From Bacteroidales bacterium (GTDB lineage: Bacteria; Bacteroidota; Bacteroidia; Bacteroidales; F082), in NCBI GenBank assembly GCA_017439405.1, contig JAFSJF010000051.1, positions 1-34,197 on the forward strand: a stretch of DNA of 34,197 nucleotides. Reading direction: 5' to 3'. Below the pieces are notes generated by a model. It was not told the DNA's origin and searched no databases. It worked only from the letters and a program-made list of their open reading frames with translations. Made by a program: the position numbers and the translations under genes. Positions 1,601 to 31,628 of the stretch are shown here, in pieces (within the stretch, counting starts at the first letter, position 1; each line of letters opens with the position of its first letter).

Positions 1601-1629
1601 GTAGGGCTGTCATAGTATGGCAGCCCTAC
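1601..1629. repeat. Palindromic repeat, family A, single unit with tags on both sides
   Basis: The arms GTAGGGCTG (1601-1609) and CAGCCCTAC (1621-1629) are perfect inverted repeats. The inner part continues as T, CAT, loop AGT, ATG, G, giving a 13-bp stem with one T/G pair and a 3-nt loop. It lies 8 nt after the aspS stop. No T-run follows on the plus strand, so it is not a standard intrinsic terminator. The same sequence type recurs at 5671, 17876, 22970 and 26502. Confidence 0.85.
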
Positions 1630-5135: not shown

Positions 5136-5248
5136 GGAAGCAAATCCATACAAATCTAATACAAATAATGTTCTCGTCGAAGAGATTGTTTCGGACAGCC
5201 TACAAGAGAGAGAAAGATTTGTATTAGATTTGTTCAAGATTTGTTTCC
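5136..5248. repeat. Long imperfect inverted repeat between pfkA and comB
   Basis: A perfect 17-bp inverted repeat (5150-5166 and 5217-5233; left arm begins ACAAATCTAATAC) encloses about 50 nt. Outside it, 11-nt arms at 5136-5146 and 5238-5248 pair at 10 of 11 positions after short unpaired steps. No T-run follows, so it is not a normal terminator. A-rich runs flank both ends. It could be a small non-autonomous mobile element, an mRNA leader structure for comB (ATG at 5262), or a protein-binding site. No copy elsewhere in the window was noticed. Confidence 0.75.
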
Positions 5249-5261
5249 GAAAAAAAGAAAA

Positions 5262-6059
5262 ATGAGCATTAGTGTCATCAGCACAGCCCAGCAAGCACAA
5301 GGCATCGACTTCAGCGGGAAAACCGCCATTGTGATCGATGTTTTGCGGGCTACGAGCGTCATCACCACCGCTTTGGAGAACGGGGCGCAGGAAGTCGTTC
5401 CCGTCAAAACCATCGAAGAGGCCAAAAGCCTTTTTGCCACTTGCGATACTTCCACAACCCTTCGCGGAGGCGAGCGCAATGCCTTGAAAATCGAGGGCTT
5501 CGACTTGGGCAACTCGCCGTTGGAATACACCCAAGAAAGGGTAGGAGGCAAGACCGTCATTTTGACCACCACCAACGGCACCAACGCCATTAATAACGTG
5601 AAAGGTGCCGACGAGGTGGTTTTGGCGTGTTTCAGGAATGCTGCTGCGGTGGCGGATTATATTATCAGGCGGCTACCACGGTGTGACAGCCCTACAGACG
5701 ATGCTGTAGGGCTGTCGTATCACGGCAGCCGCGATGTGGTCATCGTCTGCGCAGGCACCGAAGGCCGTTTCTCGTTGGACGACGGCCTCTGCGCGGGAAT
5801 GTTGATAGAATTGATGAAACAGGAAGCCGAGGTCGAAACGGATGACTTGGGGCTTTTGCTGAGCCGTTTCTACAACGAAAGCAAGAACAACCTATTGAAC
5901 GCGCTTTCAGGATGTTACCACCTGAAACGGCTGTTCGCTCTGGGCTTCTATGACGACATCAAGTTTTGTTTGCAGACGAATTGTGTGACGGCTGTGCCCC
6001 TGCTGGAATCCCGCACTTTGCACAGCCGGATTGTCAGCCTTCAAGGTTCAGACAGATAA
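5262..6059 (+). CDS. comB: 2-phosphosulfolactate phosphatase (ComB family) carrying a 20-codon repeat insertion
   Basis: ComB removes phosphate from 2-phosphosulfolactate to give sulfolactate, a step first described in coenzyme M synthesis and also found in many bacteria. Start chosen at ATG 5262 (MSISVIS); an in-frame TTG at 5241 lies within the inverted repeat. Family motifs: IDVLRATS (residues 25-32), GERNALKIEGFDLGNSP (70-86), TTTNGT (102-107), VCAGTEGRFSLDD. The protein is 265 residues. Between ADYIIR and RDVVIVCAG lie 20 extra residues encoded exactly by bases 5671-5730, a back-to-back pair of repeat family A. Deleting these 60 bases restores an uninterrupted IIRRDVVIV in frame. The 3' end overlaps the convergent GSCFA gene by 19 nt. 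Whether the enzyme remains active is unknown; the frame is otherwise intact. Confidence 0.88.
   Translation: MSISVISTAQQAQGIDFSGKTAIVIDVLRATSVITTALENGAQEVVPVKTIEEAKSLFATCDTSTTLRGGERNALKIEGFDLGNSPLEYTQERVGGKTVILTTTNGTNAINNVKGADEVVLACFRNAAAVADYIIRRLPRCDSPTDDAVGLSYHGSRDVVIVCAGTEGRFSLDDGLCAGMLIELMKQEAEVETDDLGLLLSRFYNESKNNLLNALSGCYHLKRLFALGFYDDIKFCLQTNCVTAVPLLESRTLHSRIVSLQGSDR
5671..5730. repeat. Family A repeat pair inserted in frame inside comB
   Basis: Two units face each other: 5671-5697 and 5704-5730 (27 nt each), separated by ACGATG. The left arm GGCTACCACGGTGTGACAGC pairs with the right arm with a few differences, and both carry the CCCTACAG/CTGTAGGG tag toward the centre. Total length is 60 bp, so the reading frame of comB is kept. 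Confidence 0.88.
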
Positions 6060-16962: not shown

Positions 16963-17880
16963 ATGATTAACAGCCTGAAAATCGGGAACTTGACATGGCG
17001 TCATCTCAACAACCCAACCGAAGAGGACTTTGAATTCCTGAAAGACCGTTTCCATTTCCACCCCTTGGACATCGAGGACTGCAAGTCGGTGAACCAACGC
17101 CCGAAAATCGACATTTACGACGATTACTATTTCCTCATCCTGCATTTCCCCAACTTCGACCGCCAAAACAAGTTCGTGAAAATCAAGGAAGTGAAGATCT
17201 TCTGGGGCAAGGACTACATCATCTCCATCGAGAAGAACCCTTGGGGCGTGTCGCAACTCTTCGAGGAATACGAGGAACGCATCCAAAACGAAGAAGACCT
17301 CAACATCAAGACCTCCGACCTGCTGCTTTACCGCATCCTCGAGAAACTGATGACCGAGTCGGTGTATCTGCTGCGCAAGGTGGGCTTGGACGTTGAATTA
17401 ATCAATCGCGAGCTGCTGCAAGAGAAGCAGGTGAAGATTATCGAGCGCATCAGCGTGACGCGCAAGAACCTCATCCTCATCAACACCATCTTCAAGCCGC
17501 AGCTGAGGCTCTTCCACCTCTTCGAGACCGGCAAGGTGACCGGTTTCACCGACGACGTGGAGTACATGGAAGACTACTGGGGCAACATCCTCGACTACCT
17601 GCAAAAGGTGTGGGACATGACCGAGGACTACGAAGAATTGATCGAGGGCCTCTCGCAAACCTTCGACTCGATGCAGACCAACAAGACCAACGAAACGATG
17701 AAGATCCTGACCTTGGTGTCCACCATTATCCTGCCTCTGACATTCATCACGGGGCTTTACGGCATGAACGTCGGGCTGCCGTTCCAGGATAGGGCTTGGG
17801 CTTTCTGGGGCATCATGGGATTCATGGTGGTGGTGGCCGTGGTGTTCTATATCTATTTCAGGCATAAGAAGATGATGTAG
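16963..17880 (+). CDS. corA: CorA-family magnesium/cobalt transporter
   Basis: Homopentameric Mg2+ channel of the inner membrane. 305 residues from ATG 16963, preceded by a purine-rich AAAGAAAGGGGGAAAGG; the frame is open back to 16840 but that stretch is not CorA-like. N-terminal cytoplasmic alpha/beta domain, long stalk helix (about 180-240), then two transmembrane helices at the C terminus. The first helix is followed by the selectivity motif YGMNVGLP. The C terminus is the usual basic tail (YFRHKKMM). The stop codon TAG is made by the first bases of a family A repeat (TGTAGGGCTG), so the native 3' end may have been altered by it. Confidence 0.95.
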   Translation: MINSLKIGNLTWRHLNNPTEEDFEFLKDRFHFHPLDIEDCKSVNQRPKIDIYDDYYFLILHFPNFDRQNKFVKIKEVKIFWGKDYIISIEKNPWGVSQLFEEYEERIQNEEDLNIKTSDLLLYRILEKLMTESVYLLRKVGLDVELINRELLQEKQVKIIERISVTRKNLILINTIFKPQLRLFHLFETGKVTGFTDDVEYMEDYWGNILDYLQKVWDMTEDYEELIEGLSQTFDSMQTNKTNETMKILTLVSTIILPLTFITGLYGMNVGLPFQDRAWAFWGIMGFMVVVAVVFYIYFRHKKMM

Positions 17881-17943
17881 GGCTGCCGTAATACGACAGC
17901 CGAACTGTCATTGCAGCGGCTGCCACTGTGTGACAGCCCTACA
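17876..17943. repeat. Family A repeat pair overlapping the corA stop codon
   Basis: Two units with outward-facing tags: 17876-17901 (TGTAGGGCTGCCGTAATACG...) and 17918-17943 (GGCTGCCACTGTGTGACAGC...CTACA), separated by 16 nt. Each unit folds on itself: inner triplets CGT/ACG in the first and CAC/GTG (read on the minus strand) in the second. The TAG at 17878-17880 ends corA. Spacing to the convergent endonuclease gene is 17 nt. Confidence 0.88.
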
Positions 17944-22969: not shown

Positions 22970-22994
22970 GGCTGCCACAGTGTGACGCCCCTAC
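22970..22994. repeat. Family A repeat, degenerate unit at the nadD stop codon
   Basis: GGCTGCCACAGTGTGACGCC then CCTAC. On the minus strand its GTAG supplies TAG (22991-22993), the stop of nadD. It also lies 7 nt after the stop of the convergent propeller gene. The inner triplet pair CAC/GTG is kept, but the outer arm has diverged (GGGGCG for GGGCTG). Confidence 0.8.
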
Positions 22995-23572
22995 GGTCGT
23001 TCGTAAAACCGATATTGTTTCATGTAAAGGAAAGCCTTCTCAGGCATGAAGTGCCGCACGTCGCGGCCCTCGCTGATGCACTGGCGAATGAACGTCGACG
23101 AAATCTCCAAAATCGGGGTTTTCAAGATGGTGACAGAGGGATAATTAATAAGGTCGCCGCCGTCATAACCCTCGCGGGGAAAGACCAAAAGCTGGTAATT
23201 ATCAAGGATTCTTTGGTATTCGCGCCAGTTCTTGAAGTTTTGCAGGCTGTCCATGCCGCAGATGAAAACAAACTGACAATCAAGATGTTGCTCTGAAAGC
23301 GCGGTCAAAGTATTAATGGTGTAGGAAGGCCTCGGCAGGTGCATTTCCACATCGCTCACGCGGAAACGCGGGTCGTCGCCAACAGCCAATTGCACCATCT
23401 TCAGGCGCTCTTGGTCGTCCAATAGTTCAGACTTTTGCTTCAGCGGGTTTTGCGGCGACACCACAAACCACAATTCGTCCAAGTCGGAGAACTCGACCAA
23501 ATAGTTGGCCAACATCACATGGCCGTGGTGGATGGGGTTGAAGGAGCCGGAATAGATGCCCACTTTTTTCAT
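22991..23572 (-). CDS. nadD: Nicotinate-nucleotide adenylyltransferase
   Basis: Joins nicotinate mononucleotide and ATP to make deamido-NAD in NAD synthesis. 193 residues with the nucleotidyltransferase motif GSFNPIHHGH (9-18), the substrate segment VSPQNPLKQKSELLDD, and the C-terminal ISSTFIR motif. Its start overlaps the gmk stop by 4 nt (ATGA), so it is translationally coupled with gmk in the yicC-gmk-nadD order common in Bacteroidota. The stop TAG is formed by a family A repeat; the C terminus YRFYERP is near the usual end for this family, so little or nothing is lost. Confidence 0.96.
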   Translation of the reverse strand: MKKVGIYSGSFNPIHHGHVMLANYLVEFSDLDELWFVVSPQNPLKQKSELLDDQERLKMVQLAVGDDPRFRVSDVEMHLPRPSYTINTLTALSEQHLDCQFVFICGMDSLQNFKNWREYQRILDNYQLLVFPREGYDGGDLINYPSVTILKTPILEISSTFIRQCISEGRDVRHFMPEKAFLYMKQYRFYERP

Positions 23573-24204: not shown

Positions 24205-24273
24205 GTAGAGACGCAATGCTTGCGTCTCAAATGATTCATCGTTTTTGTAGAGACGCAATGCTTGCGTCTCTAC
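24205..24273. repeat. Two tandem hairpin repeats between yicC and gmk
   Basis: Copy 1 at 24205-24228 and copy 2 at 24247-24273 share GTAGAGACGCAATGCTTGCG then TCTC. Copy 2 is a complete palindrome: GTAGAGACGCAA, loop TGC, TTGCGTCTCTAC. Both are preceded by ATCG and a T-run, so a unit of about 40 nt has been duplicated. This hairpin is a dispersed repeat that I know from Bacteroidota and some other phyla. Confidence 0.85.
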
Positions 24274-26469: not shown

Positions 26470-26527
26470 ATGGCAGCCGCACAAGGTTTTGCCCGTCATG
26501 CGGCTGCCATAATACGACAGCCCTACA
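26470..26527. repeat. Family A repeat with an extra perfect hairpin, before holB and after the M56 gene
   Basis: A family A unit GGCTGCCATAATACGACAGC then CCTACA lies at 26502-26527. Its left part also forms a 12-bp perfect inverted repeat with upstream sequence: ATGGCAGCCGCA (26470-26481) and TGCGGCTGCCAT (26499-26510). The remaining gap sequence (26352-26469) shows nothing else that I can identify. Confidence 0.82.
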
Positions 26528-30573: not shown

Positions 30574-31548
30574 ATGAACGAAGAAAACAGCAAATGGTTG
30601 GTCGTCGTCAACCCGATGGCTTCTATCGGGAAGGCGGGGAAAGACTGGCCTCAGATAAAACAAATCCTTATCAATGAGGGAATTGAGTTTGACGACATAT
30701 TGACAGAATATCCGCAACATGCCATTGAGATTGTCAGAAAAGCCATTGTTGAAAACGGCTATCGTAAGTTTATCGCAGTAGGGGGTGACGGCACTAACAA
30801 TGAAGTAATTAACGGCATTTTCACGCAAGACGTGGTACCGACCACCGACATCACCATGGCCGTGATGCCGATGGGCACCGGCAACGATTGGCGACGCACT
30901 TTCGGCTTTTGTATTGACTATCAGGAAAATGCAAACATCATAAAAGCGGGTCGTCTTTTCAAGCACGACATCGGGAAGGTGACTTACTATAACCACGGCG
31001 ACCCTCGGGTGCGCTATTTCCTTAACGCCGCCGGCACGGGCTTGGACGAGGTCGTGTGCCAGTCGACCAATGCCATGAAACAGCAAGGCAAAGGCGGTGC
31101 GGCGCGTTATATGATGAGCGTTGCAAAATGCCTTTTCACATTCGACTGCGTACACGTCCAACTCGAAGTTGACGACCAAATGGTTTTCGACGACGAAGTA
31201 CTCAGCCTCTCGGTGGGCAACTGCCGCTACAACGGCGGCGGCATGATGATGATGCCCAATGCCATCCCCAATGATGGCCTGTTCGACATCACCGTCATCC
31301 GCAAGGTCGGCCTGCCCAAATTCGCCGCCAACATCAGCAAAATCTACGACGGCTCTTTTATCAAAAAATTGAAAGAAGTCAGCACTTTCCAGGGCCGGAA
31401 AATCAGAATCACTTCCATCCCTGCCCACTCCATCAACCTTGAGACCGAAGGCGAAACCCTCACCAACTCGCCCTTCGACTTTGAGATGCTGCAGCAAGCA
31501 ATCAATATGGTAGTGCCTGAAAAACATATTTTTAAAAATGGCTGTTAG
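30574..31548 (+). CDS. Diacylglycerol-kinase-family lipid kinase
   Basis: 324 residues. The nucleotide-binding part has VVVNPMASIGKAGKDW (9-25) and GGDGTNNEVING (70-81), the defining motif of the DAGK catalytic family, followed by VMPMGTGNDWRRTFG. The C-terminal beta-rich half contains GNCRYNGGGMMMMPNA and DGLFDITVIRK, as in YegS/DgkB. It phosphorylates a lipid, probably diacylglycerol or another alcohol lipid, at the membrane; exact substrate not predictable. The stop TAG (31546-31548) lies inside a long hairpin repeat (GGCTGTTAGC), so the last codons may come from that element. Confidence 0.92.
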   Translation: MNEENSKWLVVVNPMASIGKAGKDWPQIKQILINEGIEFDDILTEYPQHAIEIVRKAIVENGYRKFIAVGGDGTNNEVINGIFTQDVVPTTDITMAVMPMGTGNDWRRTFGFCIDYQENANIIKAGRLFKHDIGKVTYYNHGDPRVRYFLNAAGTGLDEVVCQSTNAMKQQGKGGAARYMMSVAKCLFTFDCVHVQLEVDDQMVFDDEVLSLSVGNCRYNGGGMMMMPNAIPNDGLFDITVIRKVGLPKFAANISKIYDGSFIKKLKEVSTFQGRKIRITSIPAHSINLETEGETLTNSPFDFEMLQQAINMVVPEKHIFKNGC

Positions 31549-31615
31549 CTATTAGCCATTAGCAGTTAGCCACTGGCACACTTGCAAATGGCTAACTGCT
31601 AAAAGCTAACAGCCA
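31539..31615. repeat. Long hairpin repeat rich in TTAGC between the lipid kinase gene and pgk
   Basis: Outer arms TGGCTGTTAGCT (31539-31550) / AGCTAACAGCCA (31604-31615) and inner arms TTAGCAGTTAGCCA (31559-31572) / TGGCTAACTGCTAA (31589-31602) are perfect inverted repeats, giving a 26-bp stem with one 8-nt bulge and a 16-nt loop. It includes the stop codon of the upstream gene. A-rich sequence but no T-run follows. Confidence 0.88.
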
Positions 31616-31628
31616 AAATTTGAAATCT

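Follow-up and report, generated by a model that had tools for sequence, protein, structure and literature searches.

Protein-coding palindromes have so far been known mainly from Rickettsia and from some REP-rich genomes; the sources named here are cited from extracts throughout. In-frame Rickettsia palindromic elements (RPEs) have been on record since Ogata 2000 (as cited in PMC2229807 and PMC3767692). Where such a site is shared, the extract of PMC3767692 considers two options, one of them being hotspots for insertions that differ in origin, and prefers a common origin. REPs are defined as seldom overlapping coding regions (PMC12306157), and GTAG-tagged as well as CGTC REPs have been found inside genes in several species (PMC3733652). 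In the latter source, over half of the intragenic REP inserts are dimers or groups, encoding 20–30 residues, and different REPs are located at about one recB site in two Xanthomonas; the sole mention of Bacteroidetes found in its extract concerns CGTC repeats. In the literature, RAYT-mediated mobilization of REPs is a hypothesis, and RAYT genes may be missing.

The window (the whole stretch of DNA that was analyzed, 34,197 nt) carries an intact comB gene that contains a 60-bp repeat pair (Table 1). Like the GTAG REPs of PMC3733652, this repeat is a short GTAG-tagged palindrome of high copy number that is often arranged in opposed pairs and has intragenic copies; unlike those described in that extract, it resides in a gut Bacteroidales host, no RAYT was linked to it among 31 Y1 loci, and one gene site carries different families in different species. 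The likeness to RPEs lies in the in-frame palindromes in conserved proteins (here comB, ileS, polyprenyl synthetase, and a DUF2851 gene; the RPE sites are described as solvent-exposed in the extracts of PMC3767692 and PMC2229807) and in the presence of different groups, or none, near one site in orthologues. However, RPEs are elements of 100–150 bp in Rickettsia and Wolbachia, whereas a 25-nt unit and a 60-bp pair are found here in a Bacteroidales genus, and the families at one site are here unlike in sequence. An earlier note on this DNA had likened the insert to the Rickettsia elements; the comparison is apt as to the way of working, but the repeat itself is nearer to the GTAG-tagged REPs. 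The comB repeat works like the protein-coding palindromes and is not a Rickettsia element. Wolbachia palindromic elements (PMC2229807) and enterobacterial RU elements (PMC2759123) are also small mobile repeats with in-frame host fusion, as here, although the repeats and hosts are others and no site common to unrelated families was noted in the extracts of those two sources. No account of repeat-filled loops in Bacteroidales proteins was recognized in the literature searched (one collection).

Table 1. Positions in the window of comB, its insert, and further REP units
Feature	Position	Strand	Remarks
comB, 2-phosphosulfolactate phosphatase	5262..6059	+	265 aa, intact frame; Pfam PF04029; fold matches 1vr0
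60-bp repeat pair	5671..5730	+	In-frame reading; residues about 137-157 including shared edge codons
REP unit 1	5671..5695	-	Hairpin then CTAC (inward tag); 1 mismatch v. pattern; peptide RLPRCDSPT
Centre of the pair	5696..5705	.	10 nt, separating both tags
REP unit 2	5706..5730	+	GTAG tag then hairpin; 0 mismatches v. pattern; peptide VGLSYHGSR
Intergenic REP unit	1601..1625	+	Same type as in comB
REP pair	17877..17942	.	Outward tags, 16-nt spacer; left tag overlaps the end of the upstream gene
REP unit	22970..22994	-	2 mismatches; overlaps the end of gene 22991-23572
Intergenic REP unit	26502..26526	-	Exact match

The coding part of comB (5262–6056, plus the stop codon) contains no internal stops, and its product matched Pfam PF04029 with an E-value of 2.5e-76 over residues 16–249. 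An inverted-repeat search returned arms of 29 nt at the insert (5669–5697 and 5704–5732, 79% complementary, 6-nt gap), and the 60 bp form a single open frame throughout. The two opposed 27-nt units and 6-nt centre described in the earlier note are present in the sequence (27 + 6 + 27 nt), and the intact frame and in-frame units agree with its view that a palindromic repeat persists as a peptide of ComB. Its proposal of a clean excision held in part: the frame is kept when the 60 bp are removed, but the natural empty site in genome G059 is not an exact excision. That site reads LLR-LQK-DVVIV, two residues longer than the present comB minus 60 bp (IIR-R-DVVIV). The note had further named an observation that would speak against insertion, namely REP-free relatives with the identical 20 residues; G059 and G014 were checked, and both have a 13-residue native stretch in place of the insert. 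An inverted repeat of 26 nt (85%) at 5150–5233 of the window separates comB from the upstream gene.

A structural model, which the note had called for, was obtained with AlphaFold2 and put the insert in a loop. The mean pLDDT was 90, and insert residues 142–155 fell below 50; the low-confidence stretch is located between helix 124–136 and strand 158–163. Foldseek superposed the model on 1vr0 with an rmsd of 1.4–1.5 Å and a TM-score (by target) of 0.95–0.96, and sequence alignments to 1vr0 and 2yyv had a break or gap at the insert. The insert is thus predicted to be a low-confidence loop within an intact fold.

Each REP unit is 25 nt long and comprises the GTAG tag and an imperfect stem-loop. 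The tagged 25-mer at ≤3 mismatches was found 54 times forward and 57 times in reverse in this genome (reversed control, 0/0), and the untagged 21-nt core at ≤1 mismatch was found 80/81 times (forward/reverse) v. 1/0 for the reversed control; near-palindromic sites may count on both strands in these totals. Place, pairing, and covariation were analyzed among the matches listed, in which weak copies are under-sampled. The stem positions covary: in 93 units among those matches, one stem pair was A-T in 56, G-C in 29, and G-T in 6, and the next was C-G in 58 and T-A in 29. Fifteen outward pairs, 13 inward pairs, and one tandem pair were formed among the matches listed (28 opposed pairs overall; 35/93 units were unpaired), and inward tags are the arrangement of the comB pair. 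Genes at REP sites were called with a codon score for which the window served as the training set, and 94 units among the matches listed were distributed as 78 intergenic, four overlapping gene ends, and 12 within eight genes. Judged by its sequence, the comB repeat is a GTAG-type REP: it is a palindrome in the range of 20–40 bp with an unpaired GTAG at one end, it has a high copy number and a mostly intergenic placement, and it frequently occurs in opposed pairs. Two other structures were noticed in the window. The inverted pair at 24205–24273 starts with GTAG (GTAGAGACGCAATGCTTGCGTCTC) and perhaps represents a second REP-like family, and at 31528–31626 short repeats form a long inverted array at a gene end, with 48-nt arms that are 73% complementary.

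The earlier note rightly saw one insert, but several genes and several repeat families, which it missed, are involved. Among the matches listed, REP units are read in frame in seven, and probably eight, genes of this genome; all are stop-free, and four different frames are used. The bearers are comB, ileS, a polyprenyl synthetase gene (PF00348), the DUF2851 gene, two genes for proteins whose C-terminal tail is of the secretion type (PF18962, with a match under the cut-off), and a gene with no Pfam match, whose REP pair is near the frame's end and perhaps forms a read-through tail. The probable eighth, identified from its sequence as an ABC-type ATPase, carries a copy with two mismatches. The paucity of units inside genes and their open frames would point to purifying selection, since insertion free of selection would put most units in genes. 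The secretion tails at L097:1567-1591 and L102:527-551 have the same REP in the same place, and the repeat may have been copied together with the domain.

The ComB query matched 53 of the 149 genomes searched, part of them through the insert alone. The comparison was made with 13 genes, namely that of this genome (G000) and those of 12 congeners with a near full-length comB. Close relatives with a name are MAGs of uncultured Bacteroidales or Bacteroidia; isolates from roe deer and red deer are among them, as are some with RUG numbers, which presumably denote the rumen. The full REP pair is present in comB of G000, G057, and G055. A single unit is present in G044 (unit 1) and in G047, G018, G065, and G075 (unit 2); in G056 the unit is decayed, as judged by eye. 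In G057, unit 1 is shorter by 3 nt, with the frame intact. At the same codons, G067 has a CGTC-type repeat (G067:C53:6770-6794, one mismatch to the typed pattern; nine matches of the pattern genome-wide, control 0), and G029 perhaps has a shortened one (by eye). The site is empty in G059 and G014, as well as in 17 aligned comB genes from other families. Both of these genomes are REP-poor (0 and 1 core matches, respectively, at ≤1 mismatch); the core is present at that threshold in 60 of 99 genus genomes, in some of them as single matches at chance level. On a ComB tree calculated without the loop, the seven states required at least seven changes; the outgroup of this tree is very distant, and five of its forks are open. 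Over its final 27 nt, the insert differed by 0.12 among the three genes with the pair (0.15–0.34 in six flanking windows) and by 0.13 among four single-unit genes (0.03–0.29 in flanking windows). Because the distances of insert and flanks are similar, the comB insert behaves much like its flanks. The occurrence of unlike families at identical codons, together with empty, single, double, and decayed states, renders the question of hotspot v. divergence testable by sequence alone.

In ileS, the GTAG unit (L102:1434-1458) directly precedes the motif WTTTPWTLPSN, a region that is taken here to be the editing domain of IleRS; solved IleRS relatives have a shorter stretch at this site. The ileS query matched in 96 of the 99 genus genomes, and 70 genes from 69 genomes were read. 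GTAG REPs were assigned to 11 of their loops and CGTC REPs to two; eight held direct repeats (TAGAGTT or AGGAGTT kind), 14 held heptamer arrays, and four held other palindromes. Of the remaining loops, eight were short, 19 were of the native 25-residue type, and four had other content. A motif search bore out the GTAG class and one of the CGTC cases, and the other assignments were made by eye. Repeat-like loops thus numbered 39 of 70, partly classed by eye. The heptamer-array calls for G010 and G038 are weak, and the control of the heptamer pattern search was uninformative, as the pattern, when reversed, is almost the same as itself with a shift. No stop was found in the 70 ileS loops or in 50 synthetase loops. 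The GTAG motif occurred in 11 of the 70 ileS loops and not at all in 178,788 bp of ileS beyond them. A tree was calculated from 61 genes with the loop columns excluded and nine shorter rows dropped (the alignment extended mostly to about residue 920). The fewest changes on this tree were 28 for 12 classes and 22 for seven broader classes (28–32 in ten shuffles), and at least eight changes were required for GTAG v. the rest; recombination inflates all of these counts. Near residue 609, a second loop was longer than eight residues in 20 of the 61 genes; short tandem repeats were recognized by eye in many of these, and one species has a repeat insert at residue 560. The ileS of G059 has two inserts elsewhere that do not look like repeats. 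Five genes with a common direct-repeat loop differed by 0.013–0.027 over the 30 codons downstream v. 0.13–0.15 over the 60 upstream, and the two windows that follow gave 0.08 and 0.34; to judge from these values, the low-difference stretch is a putative recombination tract.

The synthetase query matched in all 99 of 99 genus genomes, including some paralogues, and 50 genes were read. Fourteen loops contained GTAG units and eight contained a second palindrome, GGTCCCTGAGC-N2-GTCGAAGGGCC; further loops had private palindromes or tandem repeats (by eye). The second palindrome was matched up to 67/67 times per genome (G074), 4/11 times in this genome, and 0 times in G059, and control matches were 0 across all 11 genomes searched. 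Beyond the loops, the GTAG motif was absent from 41,766 bp of synthetase genes. A loose CGTC expression, which matched three synthetase loops and one place outside, was set aside. In the model of the synthetase (mean pLDDT 85.3, other models 64–75; less uniform than that of ComB), residues 168–187 are predicted without helix and are flanked by two helices. At L146:1525-1597 and in its orthologues, synonymous divergence is below that of the flanks, with sharp borders. In seven synthetases with one GTAG arrangement, the p-distance was 0.048 in the loop v. 0.16–0.26 in the flanks, and synonymous differences were 3% v. 26–42%; in G088, G073, G021, G071, and G027, the loop value was still 0.013–0.064 v. 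0.15–0.26 upstream. The synonymous difference between recognized units and the rest of the gene was 0.073 v. 0.387 for GTAG units in 14 synthetase genes, 0.109 v. 0.404 for second-repeat units in eight, and 0.126 v. 0.298 for GTAG units in 11 ileS genes, a comparison that is biased by the choice of in-gene units that were recognizable. Gene conversion from other genomic pairs was considered for the conserved loop and is not favored by the spacer counts: at ≤2 mismatches, the loop spacer had one match per genome in seven genomes, within that gene, and others appeared at three mismatches. A second, separate synthetase copy at G055:C114 (L187) is 1.7% from that of G023 and is possibly an assembly contamination.

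That the same loops of three enzymes contain different repeats in relatives suggests that repetitive DNA repeatedly lands where the protein tolerates it. The preferred reading, to which a probability of about three in four is assigned, is that an ancestral REP dimer was kept in a permissive loop of ComB, and that such a loop is then refilled while its alleles recombine. The analysis established the identity of the REP, its reading in frame, sites that are empty in some relatives, several families at one site, and a loop in the models; that insertion was the source step, that the loop is neutral, and that repeats succeed one another in a safe harbor are inferences. A dimer of the genome-wide GTAG-type REP would have entered comB in the ancestor of part of the genus, between a ComB helix and the next strand, and would have been retained because it had no stop, preserved the frame, and fell in a loop tolerant of extra residues. 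It would now be evolving as coding sequence, with single and decayed in-frame states in congeners. Repeats may insert widely, with in-gene copies lasting only in frame and in a few permissive loops; a loop thus opened could be a lasting safe landing site for unrelated repeats, and loop alleles could also move between species via homologous recombination. In this way, enzymes such as isoleucyl-tRNA synthetase would gain new loops from repeats. The concentration of most ileS inserts in one of many loops is not obviously explained by tolerance only, and the lower synonymous divergence of the in-gene units and of the synthetase loop counts against a neutral loop. In a broader reading, fixed codons of housekeeping enzymes are standing landing loops that are filled and refilled species by species by unrelated families (GTAG REP, CGTC REP, the CCCTGAGC/GTCGAAGGG repeat, short tandem arrays, and private palindromes), via a position-favoring mechanism or a hairpin benefit at the DNA or RNA level, such that turnover is a major source of new loops; it is put forward tentatively and is rather doubtful.

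Selection of the hairpin itself, in mRNA or DNA (e.g. for a translation pause between structural elements), with any palindrome serving, is distinctly unlikely. Mean hairpin z was −2.53 for the ileS GTAG loops (11), −4.22 for the heptamer arrays (14), and −1.90 for the other palindromes (4), compared to −0.17 in 191 control windows; two of the eight short loops were also below −2, and synonymous sites are conserved in recognized units, most clearly in the synthetase loop of the seven sequences above. However, the eight of 70 ileS loops with direct repeats have no hairpin (mean z +0.46), and the means were −0.41 for CGTC (2), −1.11 for short (8), −0.54 for native (19), and −0.77 for other loops (4). 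A universal hairpin requirement at the ileS site is ruled out by the direct-repeat loops, the short and native ones having little hairpin on average. The plain distances of the comB and ileS GTAG inserts are about equal to those of their flanks, the frame rather than the full hairpin was kept in unit 1 of G057, and the synonymous comparison carries the bias described above. Hairpin selection is a live rival for the synthetase and a poorer fit for ileS and comB. Improbable to a similar degree is that a transposase or a DNA structure, not selective filtering, sends repeats to exact positions. Such targeting would fit the ileS inserts, most of which fall at one loop (39 of 70 genes), others at the second loop near residue 609, and one at residue 560, as well as the two repeat kinds taken up by the single comB site. 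However, the families differ in kind (REPs and short tandem arrays), so that a common enzyme would be unlikely. Moreover, no comB-type REP was found within ≤1.5 kb on either side of the 31 examined genus Y1 transposase loci (0/31; a positive control was run). The chance is very remote that the insert is an ordinary variable ComB loop that resembles the repeat by accident, or an assembly artefact of a single MAG: the genome is indeed a draft (159 contigs, 5.21% contamination), but the tagged pattern had no control matches genome-wide, the REP pair is shared by three species, further species have single units, and the ileS and synthetase loops are free of stops.

No link between the comB-type REP and a transposase was thus found in these 31 loci. 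The sole Y1_Tnp match of this genome (36.7 bits), at L051 (G000:C135:19253-22492), is located near other palindromes, two of which are preceded by GTAG (GTAGGGACGCATCGCATGCGTCC type).
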